DNA from: Pycnococcus provasolii | Lineage: Eukaryota > Chlorophyta > Pseudoscourfieldiophyceae > Pseudoscourfieldiales > Pycnococcaceae | DNA length: 64,000 bases | Reading direction: 5' to 3' | Assembly: GCA_938743325.2 (NCBI GenBank) | Contig: OW568867.1 | Span: 939,974 to 1,003,973, forward strand | In this document: piece by piece, positions 44,002 through 57,113 of the stretch | Layout: every line of letters starts with the position of its first letter | Numbering within the stretch: position 1 is the stretch's first letter | The notes under the pieces: model-generated | What the model was told of the DNA's origin: nothing | Databases searched by the model: none | The model's input: the letters and a program-made list of their open reading frames with translations, nothing else | Translations under genes and position numbers: made by a program

Positions 44002-44239
44002 CTTTACTTTTGTTTTTTTTCCGCTTGCGCAAAAAAAAAGGGTTCGGAATCGCGCGCCTTGATCCACTTGGCCACAAGACCTTGATCATGTTTGAAAAAA
44101 ATGACGGCCATTGCTGGTCGTCGTCATCTTCATCTTCATCATCGACATCATCATCATCCTCATGAGGATTAGGGGTTAGGGGACTATCGTAGGGTTAACC
44201 CTGGCCCTAAAACCCTACTCATCATGATCATGACACTGA

Positions 44240-44290
44240 TTTGATCTTGGCGAGAGTCGAACTCGCGATCTCGCGAGCGTTTCTCCGACA
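44240..44290 (-). other. Possible tRNA 3'-half fragment
   Basis: Read on the - strand, GCGAG-TTCGACT-CTCGC forms a perfect T-arm with a B-box-like core, followed by CAAGATCA, the shape of an acceptor 3' strand plus discriminator base. I could not find a matching 5' acceptor strand or A box within about 150 bp on either side. It may be a pseudo-tRNA, a fragment or coincidence. Confidence 0.3.
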
Positions 44291-48568: not shown

Positions 48569-48729
48569 TGGACACTTTCCCCTTCCATCGTCAGATCGAG
48601 CCCGGCTTAGAGTATGAACGCCCCGATATAAGCAATGCTCTGATTGCTCAGCAGAGCATACGCTTCACAACCTTGGCAGAGCGTACGCTTCACAACCTTA
48701 CCTTGCAAAATACTTGCGAGTTTTTTTTT
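48569..48729 (+). pseudogene. Decayed permuted tRNA-Val(CAC) copy
   Basis: This segment matches the intact gene at 49264-49395 but is broken. The 3' half has lost the anticodon-stem strand, variable loop and 5' T-stem, leaving ATCGAGCCCGG and TTAGAGTA. The 5' half has a shortened D-loop and then repeats GCAGAGC-GTACGCTTCACA a second time. A nine-T tract (48721-48729) remains. The homology begins at GGACACTTTCCCCTTCC, also found before the intact copy, so it arose by local duplication. Confidence 0.75.
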
Positions 48730-48850: not shown

Positions 48851-49078
48851 TTATGGAGTTTTGGCTGTTGATGATGGTCCGGAAGAAGATGGTGGTGGTT
48901 TGCCTTGACCTTCTTTCGTTGGCGGCGGTGTCTTTGAAGCCGTTTCGGCTGAGGCAGAAACACGCGACTTGGCGGCTGGTGGCAAAGGATTTGTTTTTGT
49001 TTTTGTCGTCTTGGCCGAAAACTGCCGTATCACCGCCCGAGCAAAAGGAAACAACAACGTGCGGCTGCTGCGCGTCAT
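48851..49078 (-). pseudogene. Truncated 5' copy of MIC60
   Basis: This encodes the first 74 residues of the MIC60 homologue at 55139, then leaves the repeat and stops after one new residue. It keeps the mitochondrial presequence (RTLLFPFARAVIRQFSAKT) but loses the membrane span and all later domains. If expressed it would be a presequence-only peptide. Confidence 0.8.
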
Positions 49079-49263
49079 TAAATTTGTTGTTCTATCTTTG
49101 CTCGTCTTGGCGACGGACGACGCAAGTGAGAATGGCGTGCTCAAGAGGAGCGGCGACAGGTTTTGGGAGCGCGCGGAAGGAGGCGCAAACAGAACCGCGA
49201 TTAACACCACGCCATCCTTGCTTATTTGTGTCACGGACACTTTCCCCTTCCATCGTTAGATCT

Positions 49264-49359
49264 CGCGTAAGGTCGTCGGATCGAGCCCGGCTTAGAGTAT
49301 GAACGCCCTGATATAAGGCAATGCTCTGATAGCTCAGTTGGCAGAGCGTACGCTTCACA
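49264..49359 (+). tRNA. Circularly permuted tRNA-Val(CAC), left copy
   Basis: The 3' half (49264-49299, positions 38-73) precedes the 5' half (49323-49359, positions 1-37), with a 23-nt spacer between. Joined, they give a 73-nt cloverleaf. The acceptor GCTCTGA pairs with TTAGAGT (two G-U), and the D stem is GCTC/GAGC. The anticodon stem TACGC/GCGTA has anticodon CAC at 49356-49358 with T33, and the T stem is GTCGG/CCGGC. Discriminator is A73, with no encoded CCA. The A box TAGCTCAGTTGG (49330-49341) is perfect, but the B-box-like GGATCGAGCCC lies upstream of it. A T10 tract follows. The break is between 37 and 38. Permuted tRNAs are known from a few algae and are processed through a circular intermediate. 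Confidence 0.88.
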
Positions 49360-49385
49360 ACCTTACCTTGCAAAATACTTGCGAG

Positions 49386-49395
49386 TTTTTTTTTT
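49386..49395 (+). terminator. Pol III T10 terminator
   Basis: Ten T residues lie 26 nt after the 5' half of tRNA-Val(CAC). They are where a Pol III transcript of the permuted gene would end. Confidence 0.8.
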
Positions 49396-49779
49396 GGTTG
49401 AACGTACGATGATATGCGGGGGGACGGGGGCGTGTCCAACGTGTACATTGACGCAAACCGCTCGCTGGTCCACAGGTACTCCGACAGTACGCCGGTACGC
49501 CGGTCAGATTAAGGAACGATTTCCAGATGTGGGGACCCGCGAAGAGGTAACTGTTACGGTTAACCCTACACGGTGTGCGTGTAGGGTTCCGTCAGCTGTG
49601 GCTAGGCGCGAGAGACCCGCGGCGTCCAGCACCCGGACGAAACGCCGCACCTCAGCGCCCCGTGTGGTCATCGTCGAAGCTTCTCGGGCGCGGGCCATAC
49701 ACGCAGCGCGACGCAGGAGGAATGTCGCCGTCTCCGTCCTCGCGGAGAGCGCGCGCGAGGCATTCCGGGCACGTCCATA

Positions 49780-50275
49780 CCGAATCTATCCCATCAACAT
49801 TATCGATAATTTATTCTGCTTGGAGATCACGAAGGATATACCCGACGAGGAAGTCGACATCGCGTATCACCCACAGCACAACAAGAACAACACCTACGCC
49901 ATGAACTTAGAAGCGGCCGCGGAAATACTACGCGGAATGCAGCTTCTTCACTTACGCTTGGGGCATTCTCGGAGAGAAAAATCTACGATTCTATTCTCGC
50001 TGGAGCAAAATTCGGCCCTGAAGCACTCACGGCAAAACCAACCAAGCCGAAAGTACCGTGCGCCGGATGTCTCAAAGGCAAATGCAAAAAACCGCGGAGA
50101 ACGCGCGGAGCTGGAGCCTGGTGAACTCATCCATATCGACCTCAAGGAGAAGGTCGAGAAATCCTATAACGGCTGCGAATACTGGGTGCACTTCACAGAC
50201 GATAAAACGAGGTTCTCTATGCCATTCGCACTGAAAACAAAAGACGCGAGGCGCAATATCCCCCGACAGACCACC
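49780..50275 (+). mobile_element. Ty1/copia integrase-region fragment
   Basis: Translation shows a decayed gag-pre-integrase and integrase start: LLHLRLGH (the HxxxH half of the zinc finger), then in another frame CAGCLKGKCKKP (the Cys half), then GELIHIDL and WVHFTDDKTRFSMPF, the region around the first catalytic Asp. The pieces are in different frames, so it is a broken remnant. No LTRs, reverse transcriptase or RNase H are present. It sits between the two permuted tRNA genes, consistent with the preference of copia elements for tRNA-gene neighbourhoods. Confidence 0.7.
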
Positions 50276-50285
50276 CGGCCCATGC

Positions 50286-50294
50286 AAAAAAAAA
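50286..50294 (-). terminator. Pol III T9 terminator (- strand)
   Basis: Nine A on the + strand give nine T, 13 nt past the 5' half of tRNA-Val(AAC). Confidence 0.8.
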
Positions 50295-50307
50295 TTGAAC
50301 ATTGCTA

Positions 50308-50428
50308 TGTTAAGCGGATGCTCTACCAACTGAGCTATGCTGACTACATGAATGCATATATCAACGATACGTTGACTGAAAGTCGAAAATCGTATCAACA
50401 ACCGGGCTCGATCCGATGACCTTCCGCG
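50308..50428 (-). tRNA. Circularly permuted tRNA-Val(AAC), left copy
   Basis: On the - strand the 3' half (50428-50393) precedes the 5' half (50344-50308), with a 48-nt spacer. Its sequence matches the right-arm copy at 53789-53909; see that entry for the fold. It differs from tRNA-Val(CAC) in the acceptor and anticodon stems, so it is a separate isoacceptor, not a repeat of the same gene. Its T9 tract is at 50286-50294. Confidence 0.87.
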
Positions 50429-50574
50429 CATTATAGGTTGCAATTGAGCGGTGTGACACAGTACTAATATGAGACTACAGTCTTGGGCTCTTGGCATCTT
50501 TTCACGTCGCCCGTGTTATCCGCAAGCGGCCGGCCCTTGTGCGTTTTCCGCCACACCACCAAAACAAAGCAATA

Positions 50575-50750
50575 ATGATGTCCTCCTCCTCCTCCTCCTC
50601 CTGTCTTTCAGACTTTCACGCCGCCGCCACGTTCTTCTCCTCAGGAAGACAACAAGAAGAACTCCTCTTCTTCCACCAACGTTCGCAAAGAAGAAGAAGA
50701 AGGGGGGTGCCTCGGAATCCGCAGATTCAGGCGCCATGTCATCAGACGGA
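50575..50750 (+). pseudogene. Truncated, frameshifted 5' copy of gatB
   Basis: This matches the first 55 or so codons of gatB (presequence only). An 8-bp insertion relative to the right arm, after CCTGTCTTTCA near 50610, shifts the frame. The homology ends at 50750 before the catalytic domain, so no GatB can be made. Confidence 0.85.
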
Positions 50751-51233
50751 TCACGGAATATTGTATATACGGCGATTGAGTACGATAGATGGTGGTATAC
50801 GCCATACAGTACAATGAATCTACAAAGCGTGTACACGATTTCACCCTCACTTTCTGTGCCGCGCAGGGCTGCGTGTGGCGACTAGCAACCTCAAAGCAGA
50901 CGTCCTTGCCGAGGTTCGCGAAGGTGAAGCGCGTTCCTTCCAGCGGCGCGGCGACCTCAAAATCGGGTTGCAGGTGGACGCCTTGCAACGTAGGCGAAAA
51001 AAACGCCGGTCCGAAAAAAAACGGACCCAAATCCGTTTTTTTTGATCCGCGTGCCTTTTCTCGTCAGGAAAAGGCACGCGTGGGAAATGATATGAGCGAC
51101 GTGATATATGTTTTGGATAGATTTGGATATGGGCAGGGCGGGTTCAGAATTTGCTCCGAAAAATCAGAAAAATAACCCCTGGTATTGAGTTTTCGTTCGT
51201 CACATTTGATCCCTTCACTTTTGTTTCCTATCG
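50751..51233. other. Spacer of the inverted repeat, no clear gene
   Basis: It starts at the left-arm boundary. It contains short open frames on both strands, none recognised, and the hairpin cluster at 51008-51080. Confidence 0.5.
51008..51080. repeat. Cluster of three perfect hairpins
   Basis: Hairpin 1 is GGTCCG-A8-CGGACC (51008-51027). Hairpin 2 overlaps it: A8-CGGA pairs with TCCG-T8 (51014-51025 with 51032-51043, 6-nt loop). Hairpin 3 is GCGTGCCTTTTC (51049-51060) with its exact complement at 51068-51079, extended by one C-G pair. Hairpins 1 and 2 exclude each other. Confidence 0.85.
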
Positions 51234-51884
51234 ATGACGATGTCGTCGAAGCTGCTCTTGTTTCTCGTCGTGGCGATCTTTAGCATGAGTCTCTTTGCTC
51301 TGACAAGCGTGCACGCTGATGACTCGAACACGAACTCGACGGATTCGGACTCGAAGAAGGAGATGAGGATGATGATGAAGGAGATGATGAAGGACATGAT
51401 GATGCCCGAAAAGTGCCAGGGGAAACCTCTCAACTACGCCGGAGCGTACAGCTTGAAGTCTGCGCACATGTCGTATGATACGACCACCTCGACGCTCAGT
51501 GGTGCCGAGGACCAAACGTTGGAATTCGTAATTTCGCCTGGAAGCGCTGGTAAGACGTCTTGGATCATGAACAAGTACACCGGCGATCCAGCGACGAGGA
51601 ACATCATGACGACGAGGCTTGCTTCAGTTGAAGCTGGAGCCGGTGTCAAGGTGGATGCTCTGTGCTTTGCGCCACCACCCAAGTGGGGAGGCAAGGGCAT
51701 GATGAGCTGCGTCGACACGCTGGATTCCGGTCACACGACCGTCATCCCTGACGAGGTGAACGACGATTGCGAAGTCGTCACGGCCTCGTATAAGTACACG
51801 GAGGCAGCGACGGTGGGCTGCACGGAGACACTGTGCATGCCCAATACTAGTGAAGGGAAGCTGACGCGCGTCACAGAGGAGTAA
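51234..51884 (+). CDS. Secreted protein with Met-rich segment, unknown
   Basis: This 216-residue protein begins with a clear signal peptide (KLLLFLVVAIFSMSLFALTSVHA), cleaved likely after HA near residue 28. A Ser/Asp/Thr stretch follows, then the unusual MRMMMKEMMKDMMM (about 45-58). The mature domain has about six Cys (EKCQGK, ALCFAPP, MSCVD, DDCEV, GCTETLC), which could form disulfides. I do not recognise it. A Met-rich motif can bind copper, but that is speculative. It lies in the loop between the inverted-repeat arms, so it is single-copy. Confidence 0.65.
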   Translation: MTMSSKLLLFLVVAIFSMSLFALTSVHADDSNTNSTDSDSKKEMRMMMKEMMKDMMMPEKCQGKPLNYAGAYSLKSAHMSYDTTTSTLSGAEDQTLEFVISPGSAGKTSWIMNKYTGDPATRNIMTTRLASVEAGAGVKVDALCFAPPPKWGGKGMMSCVDTLDSGHTTVIPDEVNDDCEVVTASYKYTEAATVGCTETLCMPNTSEGKLTRVTEE

Positions 51885-51950
51885 GTAAGTAGCGCATGAA
51901 AAGAAGGCACTACTACGGCGAATAATAAACTTTTTACTGTAAACCTTACA

Positions 51951-53642
51951 TCATCCATCCAACATGGGAACAATGATCGAGTCAATCATCTTGGGATTTG
52001 CGTTGCCCTTCTTGAGCACGCCACCGACGAAAAATCCCTTGAGCTTTGTTTTGCCACCCCTGTACTGCTCGAGCTGATTTGGATTGGCGTCGACAACCTC
52101 GCGGCACCACGCGGTGATTTGATCAGGGTCGCTCACCTGAGCGAGATTGTTGTCCTCGACGTACTGTCTCAACTCCTTCTCGTCGTTTCCAACGTCACCT
52201 CCAGTGAGTGCCGCTTTCAAAAGCTCCTTCGCCGTCTTGCCTGAAATGAGCTCCTCCGATTCGCTCAAGGTTAGAATAGCCGCGAAGATTTCCACGGTGA
52301 GACCTGACTCGCCCGTCTTGGACGAGTTGAAGTGCCCCATGATGTCGCCAAGCACGTAGTTGCACGCGGCACGGATGACGCCTTCGTTGCCGTTCAGATG
52401 CGCGACTGTGCTATCCAGGAACGTGAGCAACCCGAACGGATTCTCGCACAGCGTCAGCGCCGTGTCCGCGGTGAGGTTCAGCGGGGGCGACTGGATGCGC
52501 CTTCTCGTCTCGCTTGGAAGCTCGACGAACGGGAGGCGGCGATCGTGCGAGGACGTGTGATCCTCTTCGAAGCGACGTGCGAGGTCTGCGCGCACCGCGT
52601 CGATGTCGATGCGCGTCGGTGGAAGGTCCGGCTCGGGGAAGTAGCGGTAGTCCGCCGCACCTTCCTTGGAACGCGCTGAGCGCGTCACGCCATTCGCTTC
52701 GTCCCACAGCCTCGTCTCCTGCTGGATGGCATCTCCGTCGCCAGCTTCCAGCAGAGCGAGCTGCCGCTCAGCCTCGTGGTGCACCGCCCTTGCGATGGAG
52801 CTGAAGCTGTTTAGATTTTTCACCTCCACCTTGGTGCCAAAAGCCTCCGTGCTCTGCTTGCGCAGGCTCACGTTGACGTCGCAGCGCATCGACCCTTCGT
52901 TCAGGTTGCCGTCCGAGACACCCAGGGCGCGCACGAGCCGACGCAGCTCCTGGGCGTACTGCGAAGCCTCCGCGGGTGTGCGTATGTCTGGCTTGCTGAC
53001 GATTTCGAGCAGCGGCACACCTGCACGGTTAAAGTCGACAAGCGCGTCCGCGTCGCCGTCGTACGTCAGCTTGCCAGCATCCTCCTCGAGGTGAGCTCGC
53101 TCGATGCCGACGTGCTTGACCGATCCGCCGTTCGCCTCTGGCATCTGCACCTCCAGCGTCCCACCCTCGACGATGGGCTCGTAGAACTGTGTAATTTGGT
53201 ACCCCTTGGGCAGGTCCGCGTAGAAGTACTGCTTGCGGTCCCAGTGCGCGACGCTGCGTATGCTTCCGTCGAACGCCATGCCAGCGAGCGCCGCGAGTCT
53301 CACAGCCTCCGCGTTAGGCACGGGAAGCGTTCCCGGGTGTCCGAGGCACACGGGGCACACGAGCGTGTTTGGTGCAGCGCCGTACTCGTTCGGGCACGGG
53401 CAGAAAGCCTTGGTTTTCGTTTTGAGCTGGACGTGCGCCTCGATGCCGCACACGACTTCGTACTCGCCGTATGTTCCGTCTGATGACATGGCGCCTGAAT
53501 CTGCGGATTCCGAGGCACCCCCCTTCTTCTTCTTCTTTGCGAACGTTGGTGGAAGAAGAGGAGTTCTTCTTGTTGTCTTCCTGAGGAGAAGAACGTGGCG
53601 GCGGCGTGAAAGACAGGAGGAGGAGGAGGAGGAGGACATCAT
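51951..53642 (-). CDS. gatB: Organellar Glu-tRNA(Gln) amidotransferase subunit B
   Basis: This 563-residue protein starts at the ATG at 53642 (a second is at 53639); longer frames open only at TTG. GatB, with GatA and GatC, converts Glu-tRNA(Gln) to Gln-tRNA(Gln) in plastids and mitochondria. Residues 1-60 are Ser/Arg/Lys-rich (transit peptide). The body is typical: EYEVVCGIEAHVQLKTKTKAFC, NTLVCPVCLGHPGTLPVPN, YFYADLPKGYQITQ, DFNRAGVPLLEIVSKPD, SMRCDVNVSLR, then the YqeY-like tail near 440-560. The first 60 codons lie in the right arm of the inverted repeat, and a cut copy exists at 50575. Confidence 0.93.
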   Translation of the reverse strand: MMSSSSSSSCLSRRRHVLLLRKTTRRTPLLPPTFAKKKKKGGASESADSGAMSSDGTYGEYEVVCGIEAHVQLKTKTKAFCPCPNEYGAAPNTLVCPVCLGHPGTLPVPNAEAVRLAALAGMAFDGSIRSVAHWDRKQYFYADLPKGYQITQFYEPIVEGGTLEVQMPEANGGSVKHVGIERAHLEEDAGKLTYDGDADALVDFNRAGVPLLEIVSKPDIRTPAEASQYAQELRRLVRALGVSDGNLNEGSMRCDVNVSLRKQSTEAFGTKVEVKNLNSFSSIARAVHHEAERQLALLEAGDGDAIQQETRLWDEANGVTRSARSKEGAADYRYFPEPDLPPTRIDIDAVRADLARRFEEDHTSSHDRRLPFVELPSETRRRIQSPPLNLTADTALTLCENPFGLLTFLDSTVAHLNGNEGVIRAACNYVLGDIMGHFNSSKTGESGLTVEIFAAILTLSESEELISGKTAKELLKAALTGGDVGNDEKELRQYVEDNNLAQVSDPDQITAWCREVVDANPNQLEQYRGGKTKLKGFFVGGVLKKGNANPKMIDSIIVPMLDG

Positions 53643-53788
53643 TATTGCTTTGTTTTGGTGGTGTGGCGGAAAACGCACAAGGGCCGGCCGCTTGCGGATA
53701 ACACGGGCGACGTGAAAAGATGCCAAGAGCCCAAGACTGTAGTCTCATATTAGTACTGTGTCACACCGCTCAATTGCAACCTATAATG

Positions 53789-53909
53789 CGCGGAAGGTCA
53801 TCGGATCGAGCCCGGTTGTTGATACGATTTTCGACTTTCAGTCAACGTATCGTTGATATATGCATTCATGTAGTCAGCATAGCTCAGTTGGTAGAGCATC
53901 CGCTTAACA
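53789..53909 (+). tRNA. Circularly permuted tRNA-Val(AAC), right copy
   Basis: The 3' half (53789-53824) precedes the 5' half (53873-53909), with a 48-nt spacer. Joined, they fold fully. The acceptor GTCAGCA pairs with TGTTGAT (two G-U), and the D stem is GCTC/GAGC. The anticodon stem TCCGC/GCGGA has anticodon AAC at 53906-53908, preceded by T33. The T stem is ATCGG/CCGGT around loop ATCGAGC, with A73. Position 38 is C from the 3' half, giving the AACAC loop end seen in eukaryotic tRNA-Val. The A box TAGCTCAGTTGG is perfect. The nucleotide at 54 is A, not the usual T. It lies 147 bp upstream of the gatB ATG, on the opposite strand. Confidence 0.88.
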
Positions 53910-53922
53910 TAGCAATGTTCAA

Positions 53923-53931
53923 TTTTTTTTT
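53923..53931 (+). terminator. Pol III T9 terminator
   Basis: Nine T residues 13 nt after the 5' half of the right tRNA-Val(AAC). Confidence 0.8.
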
Positions 53932-53949
53932 GCATGGGCCGGGTGGTCT

Positions 53950-54430
53950 GTCGGGGGATATTGCGCCGCGTCTTTTGTTTTCAGTGCGAATGGCATAGAG
54001 AACCTCGTTTTATCGTCTGTGAAGTGCACCCAGTATTCGCAGCCGTTATAGGATTTCTCGACCTTCTCCTTGAGGTCGATATGGATGAGTTCACCAGGCT
54101 CCAGCTCCGCGCGTTCTCCGCGGTTTTTTGCATTTGCCTTTGAGACATCCGGCGCACGGTACTTTCGGCTTGGTTGGTTTTGCCGTGAGTGCTTCAGGGC
54201 CGAATTTTGCTCCAGCGAGAATAGAATCGTAGATTTTTCTCAATGCCCCAAGCGTAAGTGAAGAAGCTGCATTCCGCGTAGTATTTCCGCGGCCGCTTCT
54301 AAGTTCATGGCGTAGGTGTTGTTCTTGTTGTGCTGTGGGTGATACGCGATGTCGACTTCCTCGTCGGGTATATCCTTCGTGATCTCCAAGCAGAATAAAT
54401 TATCGATAATGTTGATGGGATAGATTCGGT
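53950..54430 (-). mobile_element. Ty1/copia integrase-region fragment, right copy
   Basis: Reverse-complement copy of the left-arm fragment, with its own indels (for example about 8 bp extra near 54482 and about 6 bp fewer near 54240). It predates the arm duplication because both arms carry it between the tRNA genes. Confidence 0.7.
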
Positions 54431-54821
54431 ATGGACGTGCCCGGAATGCCTCGCGCGCGCTCTCCGCGAGGACGGAGACGGGCAGACGGCGACATTCCTC
54501 CTGCGTCGCGCTGCGTGTATGGCCCGCGCCCGAGAAGCTTCGACGATGACCACACGGGGCGCTGAGGTGCGGCGTTTCGTCCGGGTGCTGGACGCCGCGG
54601 GTCTCTCGCGCCTAGCCACAGCTGACGGAACCCTACACGCACACCGTGTAGGGTTAACCGTAACAGTTACCTCTTCGCGGGTCCCCACATCTGGAAATCG
54701 TTCCTTAATCTGACCGGCGTACCGGCGTACTGTCGGAGTACCTGTGGACCAGCGAGCGGTTTGCGTCAATGTACACGTTGGACACGCCCCCGTCCCCCCG
54801 CATATCATCGTACGTTCAACC

Positions 54822-54831
54822 AAAAAAAAAA
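54822..54831 (-). terminator. Pol III T10 terminator (- strand)
   Basis: Ten A on the + strand, 26 nt beyond the 5' half of the right tRNA-Val(CAC). Confidence 0.8.
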
Positions 54832-54857
54832 CTCGCAAGTATTTTGCAAGGTAAGGT

Positions 54858-54953
54858 TGTGAAGCGTACGCTCTGCCAACTGAGCTATCAGAGCATTGCC
54901 TTATATCAGGGCGTTCATACTCTAAGCCGGGCTCGATCCGACGACCTTACGCG
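54858..54953 (-). tRNA. Circularly permuted tRNA-Val(CAC), right copy
   Basis: On the - strand the 3' half (54953-54918) precedes the 5' half (54894-54858). Both halves are identical to the left-arm copy at 49264-49359. It ends 185 bp upstream of the MIC60 ATG and points away from it. Two identical copies in an inverted repeat suggest recent duplication or gene conversion. Confidence 0.88.
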
Positions 54954-55138
54954 AGATCTAACGATGGAAGGGGAAAGTGTCCGTGACACAAATAAGCAAG
55001 GATGGCGTGGTGTTAATCGCGGTTCTGTTTGCGCCTCCTTCCGCGCGCTCCCAAAACCTGTCGCCGCTCCTCTTGAGCACGCCATTCTCACTTGCGTCGT
55101 CCGTCGCCAAGACGAGCAAAGATAGAACAACAAATTTA

Positions 55139-57113
55139 ATGACGCGCAGCAGCCGCACGTTGTTGTTTCCTTTTGCTCGGGCGGTGATACGGCAGTTTTC
55201 GGCCAAGACGACAAAAACAAAAACAAATCCTTTGCCACCAGCCGCCAAGTCGCGTGTTTCTGCCTCAGCCGAAACGGCTTCAAAGACACCGCCGCCAACG
55301 AAAGAAGGTCAAGGCAAACCACCACCATCTTCTTCCGGACCATCATCAACAGCCAAAACTCAAGCCCCTGTTCTACTTGCGGCTGCAGGCGTGTCGGCGG
55401 GTGCGGCGTTGGCGTACTACCAGTACGGAGTAGGGGCAAAAAAGAAGGGCATTCCTGACGTCGTGCAGTCGTCGGAGCACGTCATCCCTGACGACGCGCC
55501 TCCAGCGTTACGTACCGACGACGCCGATGACAGCGTCAGCCATAAAGAGGAGGAGAAGTTGGAACTTGACGAAACGCAGCAGCAGGTGCTCGCTGACTTT
55601 CTCTCGGATGCGTTCAAGGACGACACGGCGACATCCGAGGAGACGCAACCACCTGAACCACCACCACCACCACCACCACCGCCGCCGCCACCACCACCAC
55701 CACCTGCTGCTGCTTCTTCCTCCCCAGAAGAAGAGATCTCTTCTTCTGCTCCACCAGAGACACCACAAGAAGTACCCACCGCACAACATTCACAGCCTCA
55801 AGAATCTATCATCCAACAGACGACTCCAGAAGAGTCTTCACCTGAGCAGCAACAGCAACAACAACAGCAAATGCTCTCAGCGGCACGGCTCGTGCAGTAC
55901 GCCATTGAGACGAATCGTGGGCCATCGTCCAACACGGATGGAACTGTGAACTACGCCGAGTACGGCGCGATGCATCGCCAAGCTTTGGCTGATGCTGAGG
56001 TTCTGGAGAGTGCTCTCAAGCACCAGCAGGAGGAGCTCGAGGTACGCCGTAAGCATTCTGCCCCCTCCCCCTCCTCTCAGCAAAATCACGCCCTTTAGAC
56101 TTGTACTCACCGCGCGCGTCTCTCTTTGATGATGCGAATTTGTCGGCCTTAACCGAGGGCAGAGCCACCTTTGTGTCTGTTGGAAAATCTCTAGAATGTT
56201 CGCTTTCGCTTCCGTACTAACATCCTACCATTCAACACACAAAAAAAAACACCTTCAGAAAAACTTTGAAGTTCTCACGAACCAAAAAGAGCAGGAGCTT
56301 TCGCACATAGCGTCGGAGAAGGCTCTCGCGCTGCGTCGCAAGCTCGAGCTGCTTGAGGCTGAGCGCACGCAGCTGCAAGAGAAGCAGATTGCCCTCGATC
56401 AACAGCGCCAGGCGAGCGAGGAGGCGACTGTCGCGGATCTCCGCGAGCGCGCCGCTGCTCTGGCTTCCCTTCGCACCGAGGTGGCGGCTCTCGCGGGAGC
56501 CTTCTCGAGGAGGTCGGAGGAGCAGCGTGCAAGTCACCTTGCGCACCAGCTGCAGAGCGTGGCGGCACAGCTGAATCCGCATTTGCCATGCCGCTCTTCG
56601 GACCTGAGACTCGCGGCGGACAGTCTGGTGGGTTTGGCTCAGGCCAGCGGCGGCGCCGACGACGGCCTGCTGACGCTCGCGGCTGGCGTGCTTGCGGACG
56701 TCGCCGCGGAGGATGGTGTCGTACCCACGCACGCGCATCTCGCGTCCACTCTCCCCGAGCTTCGTGCATCGGCGGGAGCCGTCTGGCTGCTCGACGAGGC
56801 GGCGGAGGGCGGCGTGATTTCGCGCGCCGCGGCTCGGATGTTTGCCGCGCTGCGCATGCGCGAGCGTGCTGGTGTGACATCGTCGAGAGGGAACGGGTGC
56901 GAGGCGACGTTCGCGCGCGTTGAGGCGGCGGTGGCTGAGGGAAATCTGCTTGGGGCTGTGATCGCGCTCGAGGCGTCGACAAGCCATGCGGGGATTGCCG
57001 CGCGTGAGACGGTGGCGCCGTGGTGTTTACAGGCGAGACAGCGCGCCTCCGTAGACGAGGGTGCGCGTCTCCTCTCCGCATACGCGGCAACGGTGGCGGC
57101 AAGTTTCGTGTAA
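55139..57113 (+). CDS. MIC60: MIC60/mitofilin, two exons
   Basis: MIC60 anchors the MICOS complex at mitochondrial crista junctions. Exon 1 (55139-56041) encodes a presequence (RTLLFPFARAVIRQFS), a membrane span near 77-98 (PVLLAAAGVSAGAALAYYQYG), a proline/acidic region and the start of a coiled coil. The 217-nt intron (56042-56258) begins GTACGC and ends TTCAG, with the branch site TACTAAC at 56215-56221. It joins in phase 0 so that HQQEELE continues into KNFEVLTNQKEQ. Exon 2 (56259-57113) completes the coiled coil and the C-terminal mitofilin domain (ARVEAAVAEGNLLGAVIALEA, then WCLQARQRASVDEGARLLSAYAA). Total about 585 residues, normal for MIC60. A nearby GTAAGC (56049) would not keep frame. 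The 5' part lies in the right arm. Confidence 0.85.

Follow-up and report, generated by a model that had tools for sequence, protein, structure and literature searches.

A permuted tRNA-Val(CAC) gene and putative spliceosomal introns among the nuclear tRNA genes of Pycnococcus provasolii

A tRNA-Val(CAC) gene with its halves in permuted order was found in the terminal 64 kb of contig C7 (1,003,973 bases) of the green marine picoalga Pycnococcus provasolii. This whole stretch, which ends in telomeric TTAGGG repeats, is referred to below as the window. The reading of the locus as a permuted gene of type II, with the junction at about 37/38, is supported, and it is very probably (roughly 0.9) a functional nuclear gene belonging to a tRNA set in which every recovered gene is disrupted. 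Comparison of the genes recovered across the assembly (32,333,900 bases, 46 contigs) makes it likely, to a slightly lesser degree, that the tRNA genes of this alga hold spliceosomal introns, some of them supplied by introners, that most are also permuted, and that their precursors would depend on the spliceosome as well as on the tRNA-splicing endonuclease. The claim of a permuted Val(CAC) gene, made earlier in a sequence-only reading of this DNA, stands and is broadened by the duplication of the gene, the mostly permuted set and the GT-AG introns.

Structure of the tRNA-Val(CAC) locus

Both halves are on one strand, and the 3′ half lies upstream of the 5′ half (49264-49299 versus 49323-49359), as had been proposed. 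Position 38 of the tRNA is at 49264, and the whole permuted unit occupies 49264-49359. The features of the locus are:

49223..49234, + strand: element TATTTGTGTCAC upstream of the gene
49264..49299, + strand: 3′ half of Val(CAC), positions 38-73, 36 nt (ARAGORN on the joined halves)
49300..49322, + strand: spacer from position 73 to position 1, 23 nt, with no T run
49323..49359, + strand: 5′ half of Val(CAC), positions 1-37, 37 nt, anticodon CAC
49386..49395, + strand: T10 tract, predicted Pol III terminator, 26 bases 3′ of the 5′ half

Joining in the reverse order gives the complete 73-nt cloverleaf with anticodon CAC that the sequence-only reading had described. ARAGORN calls the joined sequence tRNA-Val(cac) with a score of 112.85, and all stems are paired (7/7, 4/4, 5/5 and 5/5). 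A permuted-tRNA covariance model scores it at 70.3 bits, the gene itself being in the training set of the model, and scores Val(AAC), which is outside that set, at 68.1 bits. In the window as it stands, with the halves unjoined, neither ARAGORN nor Rfam (at gathering scores) detects a tRNA. A permuted-cloverleaf scan of the window returned four assemblies, two of Val(CAC) and two of Val(AAC). Chance pairing of unrelated half-tRNAs was rejected, with permuted assemblies in 0 of 20 dinucleotide-shuffled windows.

The junction can be placed at 37/38 or 38/39, an ambiguity of one base that arises because C38 of the 3′ half and A38 of the 5′ half both fit. The T loop begins with A54 rather than U54. 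A54 is mainly a feature of initiator tRNA, and it is seen here in Val(CAC) (window 49264-49299), Val(AAC) (50393-50428), Val(UAC) (L066) and Ala(CGC) (L068).

The A box and T10 tract reported previously are both present, and both are kept in two identical copies of the gene. The T10 tract at 49386-49395 is the probable Pol III terminator of Val(CAC), and together with the spacer free of T runs and the upstream TGTGTCAC element it points to transcription as one Pol III unit. The lowest-energy fold of the predicted precursor differs from the permuted cloverleaf and pairs the start of the trailer with positions 41-47. Its stability is matched by 28 of 200 shuffles (z -0.97).

An intact linear Val(CAC) gene, named beforehand as the observation that would overturn the claim, was sought genome-wide and none was found. 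The joined 73-nt query matches only two pairs of halves, which are the two intact genes, and a genome-wide scan with the tRNA family, in which 63 of 587 candidates were scored, includes no contiguous nuclear tRNA; both searches need contiguous pieces, and a heavily split second Val(CAC) gene would escape them.

The inverted repeat and neighbouring genes

The second Val(CAC) gene is in the other arm of an inverted repeat. Features of this part of the window are:

48579..48729, + strand: decayed permuted Val(CAC), a pseudogene (29 bits)
48856..50753, + strand: left arm of the inverted repeat, with both Val genes
50308..50428, - strand: permuted Val(AAC), 3′ half 50428-50393, 48-nt spacer, 5′ half 50344-50308 (ARAGORN 113.2)
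51951..53744: open frame with GatB domains, between the arms and extending into the right arm
53472..55361, - strand: right arm of the inverted repeat
53789..53909, + strand: second copy of the permuted Val(AAC)
54858..54953, - strand: identical second permuted Val(CAC), in the inverted repeat

Each arm carries Val(CAC) plus a permuted Val(AAC) on the opposite strand. There are zero substitutions between the arms within the repeat and four indels of 2-8 nt, and this near identity suggests recent copying or gene conversion. The decayed Val(CAC) copy is outside the repeat and has its halves in the same permuted order, with the start of the 3′ half deleted and the 5′ half partly duplicated.

A further fragment resembling a T arm and acceptor strand is present at 44206-44277 (- strand; 15.5 bits), with no visible 5′ half or T run, and is perhaps a relic or a split piece. 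Many tRNA loci in the genome, and the U6 gene, are likewise arranged as inverted pairs separated by a few kb (window 48856-55361, C3, C9, C18, C25, C26, C34 and C7:454940/457029).

Nuclear tRNA genes recovered from the genome

Nuclear tRNAs were assembled from genomic exons for 28 anticodons. Twenty-four are permuted at about 37/38, the remaining four (Tyr, Trp, Leu-CAG and Gly-GCC) keep the linear order and carry an intron of 32-64 nt at 37/38, and none of the 28 is contiguous. The permuted order was found on many chromosomes. A run of at least seven T within 260 nt downstream is present at all other 27 recovered genes as well as at Val(CAC). Of the 28 assembled tRNAs ARAGORN recognises 27, with scores of 105.7-124.5, Leu(CAA) only ambiguously as 'SeC|Leu', and it gives no call for Ile(UAU), which has a long D loop; these calls are no blind test, since several genes had their exon boundaries placed by hand. 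The genome-wide tRNA family scan gave 29 rows, 24 of them in two contigs of organelle size and five nuclear, and all five nuclear rows are interrupted or permuted.

Genes were recovered using short D-arm and T-arm patterns built on the general tRNA consensus, inspection of fetched stretches, an introner search and the permuted-tRNA covariance model. The 28 anticodons are a lower bound and a non-random sample, because true genes were picked by their letters and neighbours. The pattern and model searches recovered no genes for Asp, Gln, His, Phe, Pro, initiator Met and several other anticodons. Only the Ser/Leu D-arm pattern was enriched (57 matches versus 20 in the reversed control). The D-arm pattern GCTC..GAGC was not (93 versus 96), and 30 of its matches were examined as loci plus 17 as stretches picked by eye. 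For the B-box pattern (117 versus 144) genes were sought among the 100 matches listed, and for a Glu/Asp-like D-arm pattern (36 versus 62) five candidates were inspected, none of them a tRNA. Twins were counted once (L029, L032, L071, L074, L076 and L093), and the twin candidate L092 was also left out. Candidates dropped before the count of 28 were L065, L077, L078 and L079 (non-tRNA by eye), L116-L121 (non-tRNA by program and eye) and L122 (non-tRNA by program alone); L091 was dropped after it was recognised by eye as 18S rRNA.

Several loci have unusual features. L089 (C26:16852; region C26:16400-17300), which is outside the count of 28, resembles a split tRNA close to Lys(CUU), with a T arm, a matching acceptor strand, possible GT-AG introns and a twin of the T arm at C26:24964. 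Unusually long D loops occur in Lys(UUU) (L090), Ile(UAU) (L125) and Arg(UCU) (L126), for example AGTATTTGGTCA. In Thr(AGU) (L064), G58 replaces A58 in the T loop (TTCGGTC).

A reading of this locus as a silent relic, with the tRNA supplied by another Val(CAC) gene that escaped detection, perhaps because introns divide its D or T arm, is unlikely. A clearly decayed copy does lie nearby at 48579-48729, a heavily split gene would be missed by searches with contiguous pieces, Val(UAC) could read GUG codons by wobble, and the precursor fold is unremarkable. However, the two identical copies keep all stems, T33, the A box, the T10 tract and the upstream element, which the decayed copy does not. The joined query finds no other copy, and 24 of the 28 recovered anticodons are permuted likewise. 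A functional permuted Val(CAC) gene is the preferred reading.

GT-AG introns within tRNA genes

Thirteen of the 28 recovered tRNA genes are split by GT-AG introns outside 37/38; Val(CAC) has none. The 23 introns are 69-80 nt long, number one to four per affected gene, and have to be removed to give a tRNA. Fifteen of them start with GTAAGT or GTACGT, 18 end with CAG and five with TAG, GT-AG ends having been actively sought when the introns were placed. A branch-point-like motif, YTRAY, is present within 60 nt of the intron end in 15 of the 23 by raw count. The introns lie at 6/7, 8/9, 11/12, 26/27, 28/29, 29/30, 30/31, 31/32, 33/34, in the variable loop, and at 61/62, 62/63, 63/64, 64/65 and 67/68. 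No GT-AG intron is at 37/38.

Complete cloverleaves result when the exons are joined at the GT-AG boundaries. In Cys, where the boundaries are GCGGCGGT/GTAAGT...TTTTTAG/AGCTC, splicing restores T8 and A9; T8 is restored in Lys(CUU) also, and full stems re-form in the spliced tRNAs. Identity elements appear after splicing in Ala (G3:U70), Cys (U73), and Ser(GCU) and Ser(AGA) (both G73), and charging of the spliced products is predicted. Ala(CGC) contains three GT-AG introns, Lys(CUU) three, one of which splits the acceptor strand, and Arg(ACG) four. The 3-nt exon proposed in the variable loop of Arg(ACG) is the least certain part of these examples.

No permuted assembly was obtained from seven intron loci under 300 dinucleotide shuffles each (0 of 2,100) or from tiles of 16 other loci on both strands (0 of 446). 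The same program assembles five of the seven real intron loci; Ile(UAU) and Arg(UCU) were missed and were assembled by hand. For Arg(ACG), Ala(CGC) and Lys(CUU) its best assembly reads other anticodons because the last intron is missed, and the final exons of these three were added by hand. ARAGORN places the Tyr and Trp introns at 37/38 slightly off from the positions given here.

The GT-AG stretches look like spliceosomal introns, and their removal by the spliceosome is suggested by the identical intron of a dynein gene described below.

An intron family shared with protein genes

The second Ala(CGC) intron, of 73 nt, has 40 matches in the genome including itself (E ≤1), 32 of which extend from end to end. 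Members of this GT-AG family are 76-100% identical and are located in both protein and tRNA genes. Eight of the 40 places were inspected, namely L123-L128, Ala (L068) and Ser(AGA) (L085). The six that were fetched comprise four in reading frames and two in further permuted tRNA genes, Ile(UAU) (L125) and Arg(UCU) (L126); Ser(AGA) is also split by a copy of the intron. At all four protein-coding places (L123, L124, L127 and L128) the frame is open with the intron removed and closed by stops with the intron kept. The L123 intron is 100% identical to the Ala intron and splits the dynein heavy-chain motif RWPLM/IDPQ, and the spliced product aligns without gaps across the junction to a solved dynein chain. 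In L127 the intron splits a FAD-binding domain. For L124 and L128 the evidence is the reading frame, which is open across the spliced junction, and L128 meets stops further on. Introner-like introns of spliceosome type thus appear to lie within tRNA genes.

Only four of the 23 tRNA GT-AG introns were found to belong to this family when all 23 were compared, so an introner origin is shown for those four. Ala intron 1 was considered as a second repeat family, and the genome search finds a single copy. The tRNA introns therefore include both family members and sequences of other kinds. UQ_con domains checked for comparison lie mostly within one open frame, a hint that the P. provasolii genome is not densely filled with introns.

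The U6 snRNA gene is also interrupted. A 161-nt GT-AG intron lies between ACAGAGAA and GATTAGCATGG in the gene at about 1310-1590 of L130 (C34:522277 region), which has an inverted twin, L129. With the intron in the gene, the best match in the Rfam U6 search is 32.4 bits compared with a gathering score of 44. The split in U6 would make it a further typical Pol III transcript that depends on splicing of the mRNA type.

These observations bear on whether the GT-AG stretches are instead atypical introns removed by the tRNA-splicing endonuclease, as in Cyanidioschyzon, with ends that match GT-AG by coincidence. Matches to the catalytic domain of this endonuclease were found in two open frames of the genome, 19 of the 23 introns are outside the repeated family, and ectopic tRNA introns of C. 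merolae are attributed to the endonuclease in PMC3978253. Nevertheless, all 23 have the form GT...YAG and fall within a single narrow range of length, and 15 have GTAAGT or GTACGT, even if GT-AG ends were sought. The same 73-nt sequence with identical ends is an intron of the dynein gene, and U6 holds a GT-AG intron too. Endonuclease removal of these stretches is decidedly unlikely, and spliceosomal introns are preferred.

It is also very unlikely that the interrupted loci are pseudogenes hit by mobile introns, with the working copies unassembled or unrecognised. For 13 different tRNAs, joining the exons restores the full cloverleaf together with identity elements, and no second gene was seen for those 13 anticodons except near-identical twins. 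The assembly has 444-fold HiFi coverage, a QV of 58.2 and both telomeres on 36 of 44 chromosomes, according to PMC11130579. The intron family is nonetheless widespread, a few loci such as L089 defied assembly, and the recovered set is incomplete. Swapping or duplication of halves by the assembler, or another assembly or haplotype artefact, is extremely unlikely, since the permuted order recurs on many chromosomes and in the decayed copy outside the repeat, even though a near-perfect inverted repeat is hard to assemble.

Upstream elements and pairing of the leader

TGTCAC or TGTGTC is present within 90 nt upstream of 17 of the 28 genes, where 1,482 tiles taken from other loci predict 1.0. TGTC alone was tried as a promoter motif and is weak (22 of 28 versus 7.4 expected). 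The leaders of ten of the 28 genes contain GGGGATACC or GGTATCC, compared with 0.1 expected. These elements, including TATTTGTGTCAC at Val(CAC), suggest a putative external promoter. The upstream TGTCAC/TGTGTC is less common where a gene holds GT-AG introns (4 of 13) than where it does not (13 of 15), a skew that is unexplained by the idea of a single promoter. A second element, GGGGATACCGGTTC or its reverse, which includes a B-box-like GGTTC, is often located 3′ of TGTGTCAC and is found in 10 of 28 leaders compared with 0.1 expected, for example at about 1-40 of L126.

Pairing between the leader and the anticodon loop was counted in the 24 permuted genes at the offset expected for the bulge-helix motif of the eukaryotic tRNA-splicing endonuclease. 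In this register 60 of 96 pairs form, compared with 47.5 ± 3.3 when leaders are permuted among genes, and none of 2,000 permutations reaches 60. Position 32 is paired with the leader in 20 of the 24. A neighbouring register is also raised (48 versus 37.2 pairs). Val(CAC) is among the weaker cases, with two of the four expected pairs and position 32 unpaired.

Proposed maturation pathway

In the pathway proposed, Pol III would start downstream of the TGTGTCAC element and stop in the T run, giving a primary transcript with the order leader, 3′ half, spacer, 5′ half and trailer. The tRNA-splicing endonuclease would cut the leader and trailer away at the anticodon loop, and a ligase would join position 37 to 38 and so close a circle, out of whose acceptor stem RNase P and a 3′ end nuclease would then excise the spacer, followed by CCA addition. 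For the 13 of 28 genes with GT-AG introns, which do not include Val(CAC), the precursor would in addition lose one to four introns of 69-80 nt. Because these introns look spliceosomal, and in part introner-derived, each such tRNA precursor would be handled by two splicing machines.

This pathway raises the questions of how Pol III transcripts reach the spliceosome and which of the two splicing systems acts first. It may also be asked whether the A and B boxes have given way to an external promoter, and whether permutation and mobile introns promote one another. In a genome of this kind, most nuclear tRNA genes go unseen by standard tRNA finders.

Comparison with known systems

Val(CAC) alone is an added member of a rare, known class. 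Permuted tRNA genes are known from C. merolae, Ostreococcus, Micromonas, a nucleomorph and Thermofilum (PMC3978253) and also from Auxenochlorella (PMC12636532). A table in PMC3978253 gives 19 permuted genes in the nuclei of four green algal species, none of them for Val, with 18 of the 19 junctions at 37/38 and spacers of 11-64 bp, and a circular intermediate is reported for green algae. The P. provasolii genes are like this listed set in being nuclear, with 37/38 junctions and short spacers, and unlike it in that 24 of 28 are permuted in one genome and 13 of 28 have GT-AG introns. The sole intron listed for those 19 genes, a 56-bp intron at 27/28 of O. lucimarinus Ser-TGA annotated 'no H' (PMC3978253), is worth a second look. 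A literature search on permuted tRNA in Pycnococcus found no report.

The resemblance to C. merolae as described in PMC3978253 is in the disruption of most nuclear tRNA genes, a suspected upstream promoter and downstream T runs. However, in C. merolae the junctions fall at several positions, the introns measure 11-69 bp and are tied to endonuclease motifs, and 34 of 43 genes are disrupted, whereas the P. provasolii introns are GT-AG, 69-80 nt, with one family common to protein genes, and 28 of 28 recovered genes are disrupted. Auxenochlorella is likewise a green alga, and permuted genes account for its incomplete tRNAscan set; the main-text passages of that account make no mention of GT-AG introns in tRNA genes (PMC12636532).

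The disruption of every recovered gene, and what appear to be spliceosome-type introns in tRNA genes, seem new. The P. provasolii set would be the most extreme disruption of tRNA genes that we know of. Textbooks assign splicing of tRNA precursors to a separate enzyme and not to the spliceosome. If correct, the present reading would place the spliceosome on tRNA precursors, which would be categorically new. No report of spliceosomal introns in tRNA, or of spliceosome action on it, was found in the literature searched, a weak indication of novelty given that preprints and most subscription papers fall outside that search.

The closest parallels for the introns come from two other systems. Fungal U6 snRNA genes have mRNA-type introns in a Pol III transcript. 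The P. provasolii U6 gene is like them in having a GT-AG intron, and the difference is that tRNA precursors would also be affected. Introners give rise to many near-identical short GT-AG introns across unrelated genes, and all of the cases known to us are in protein genes. Like introners, which are intron-generating transposons (PMC12730881, PMC11782384), the P. provasolii family consists of near-identical introns with precise ends in unrelated genes, and its members are in tRNA genes as well.
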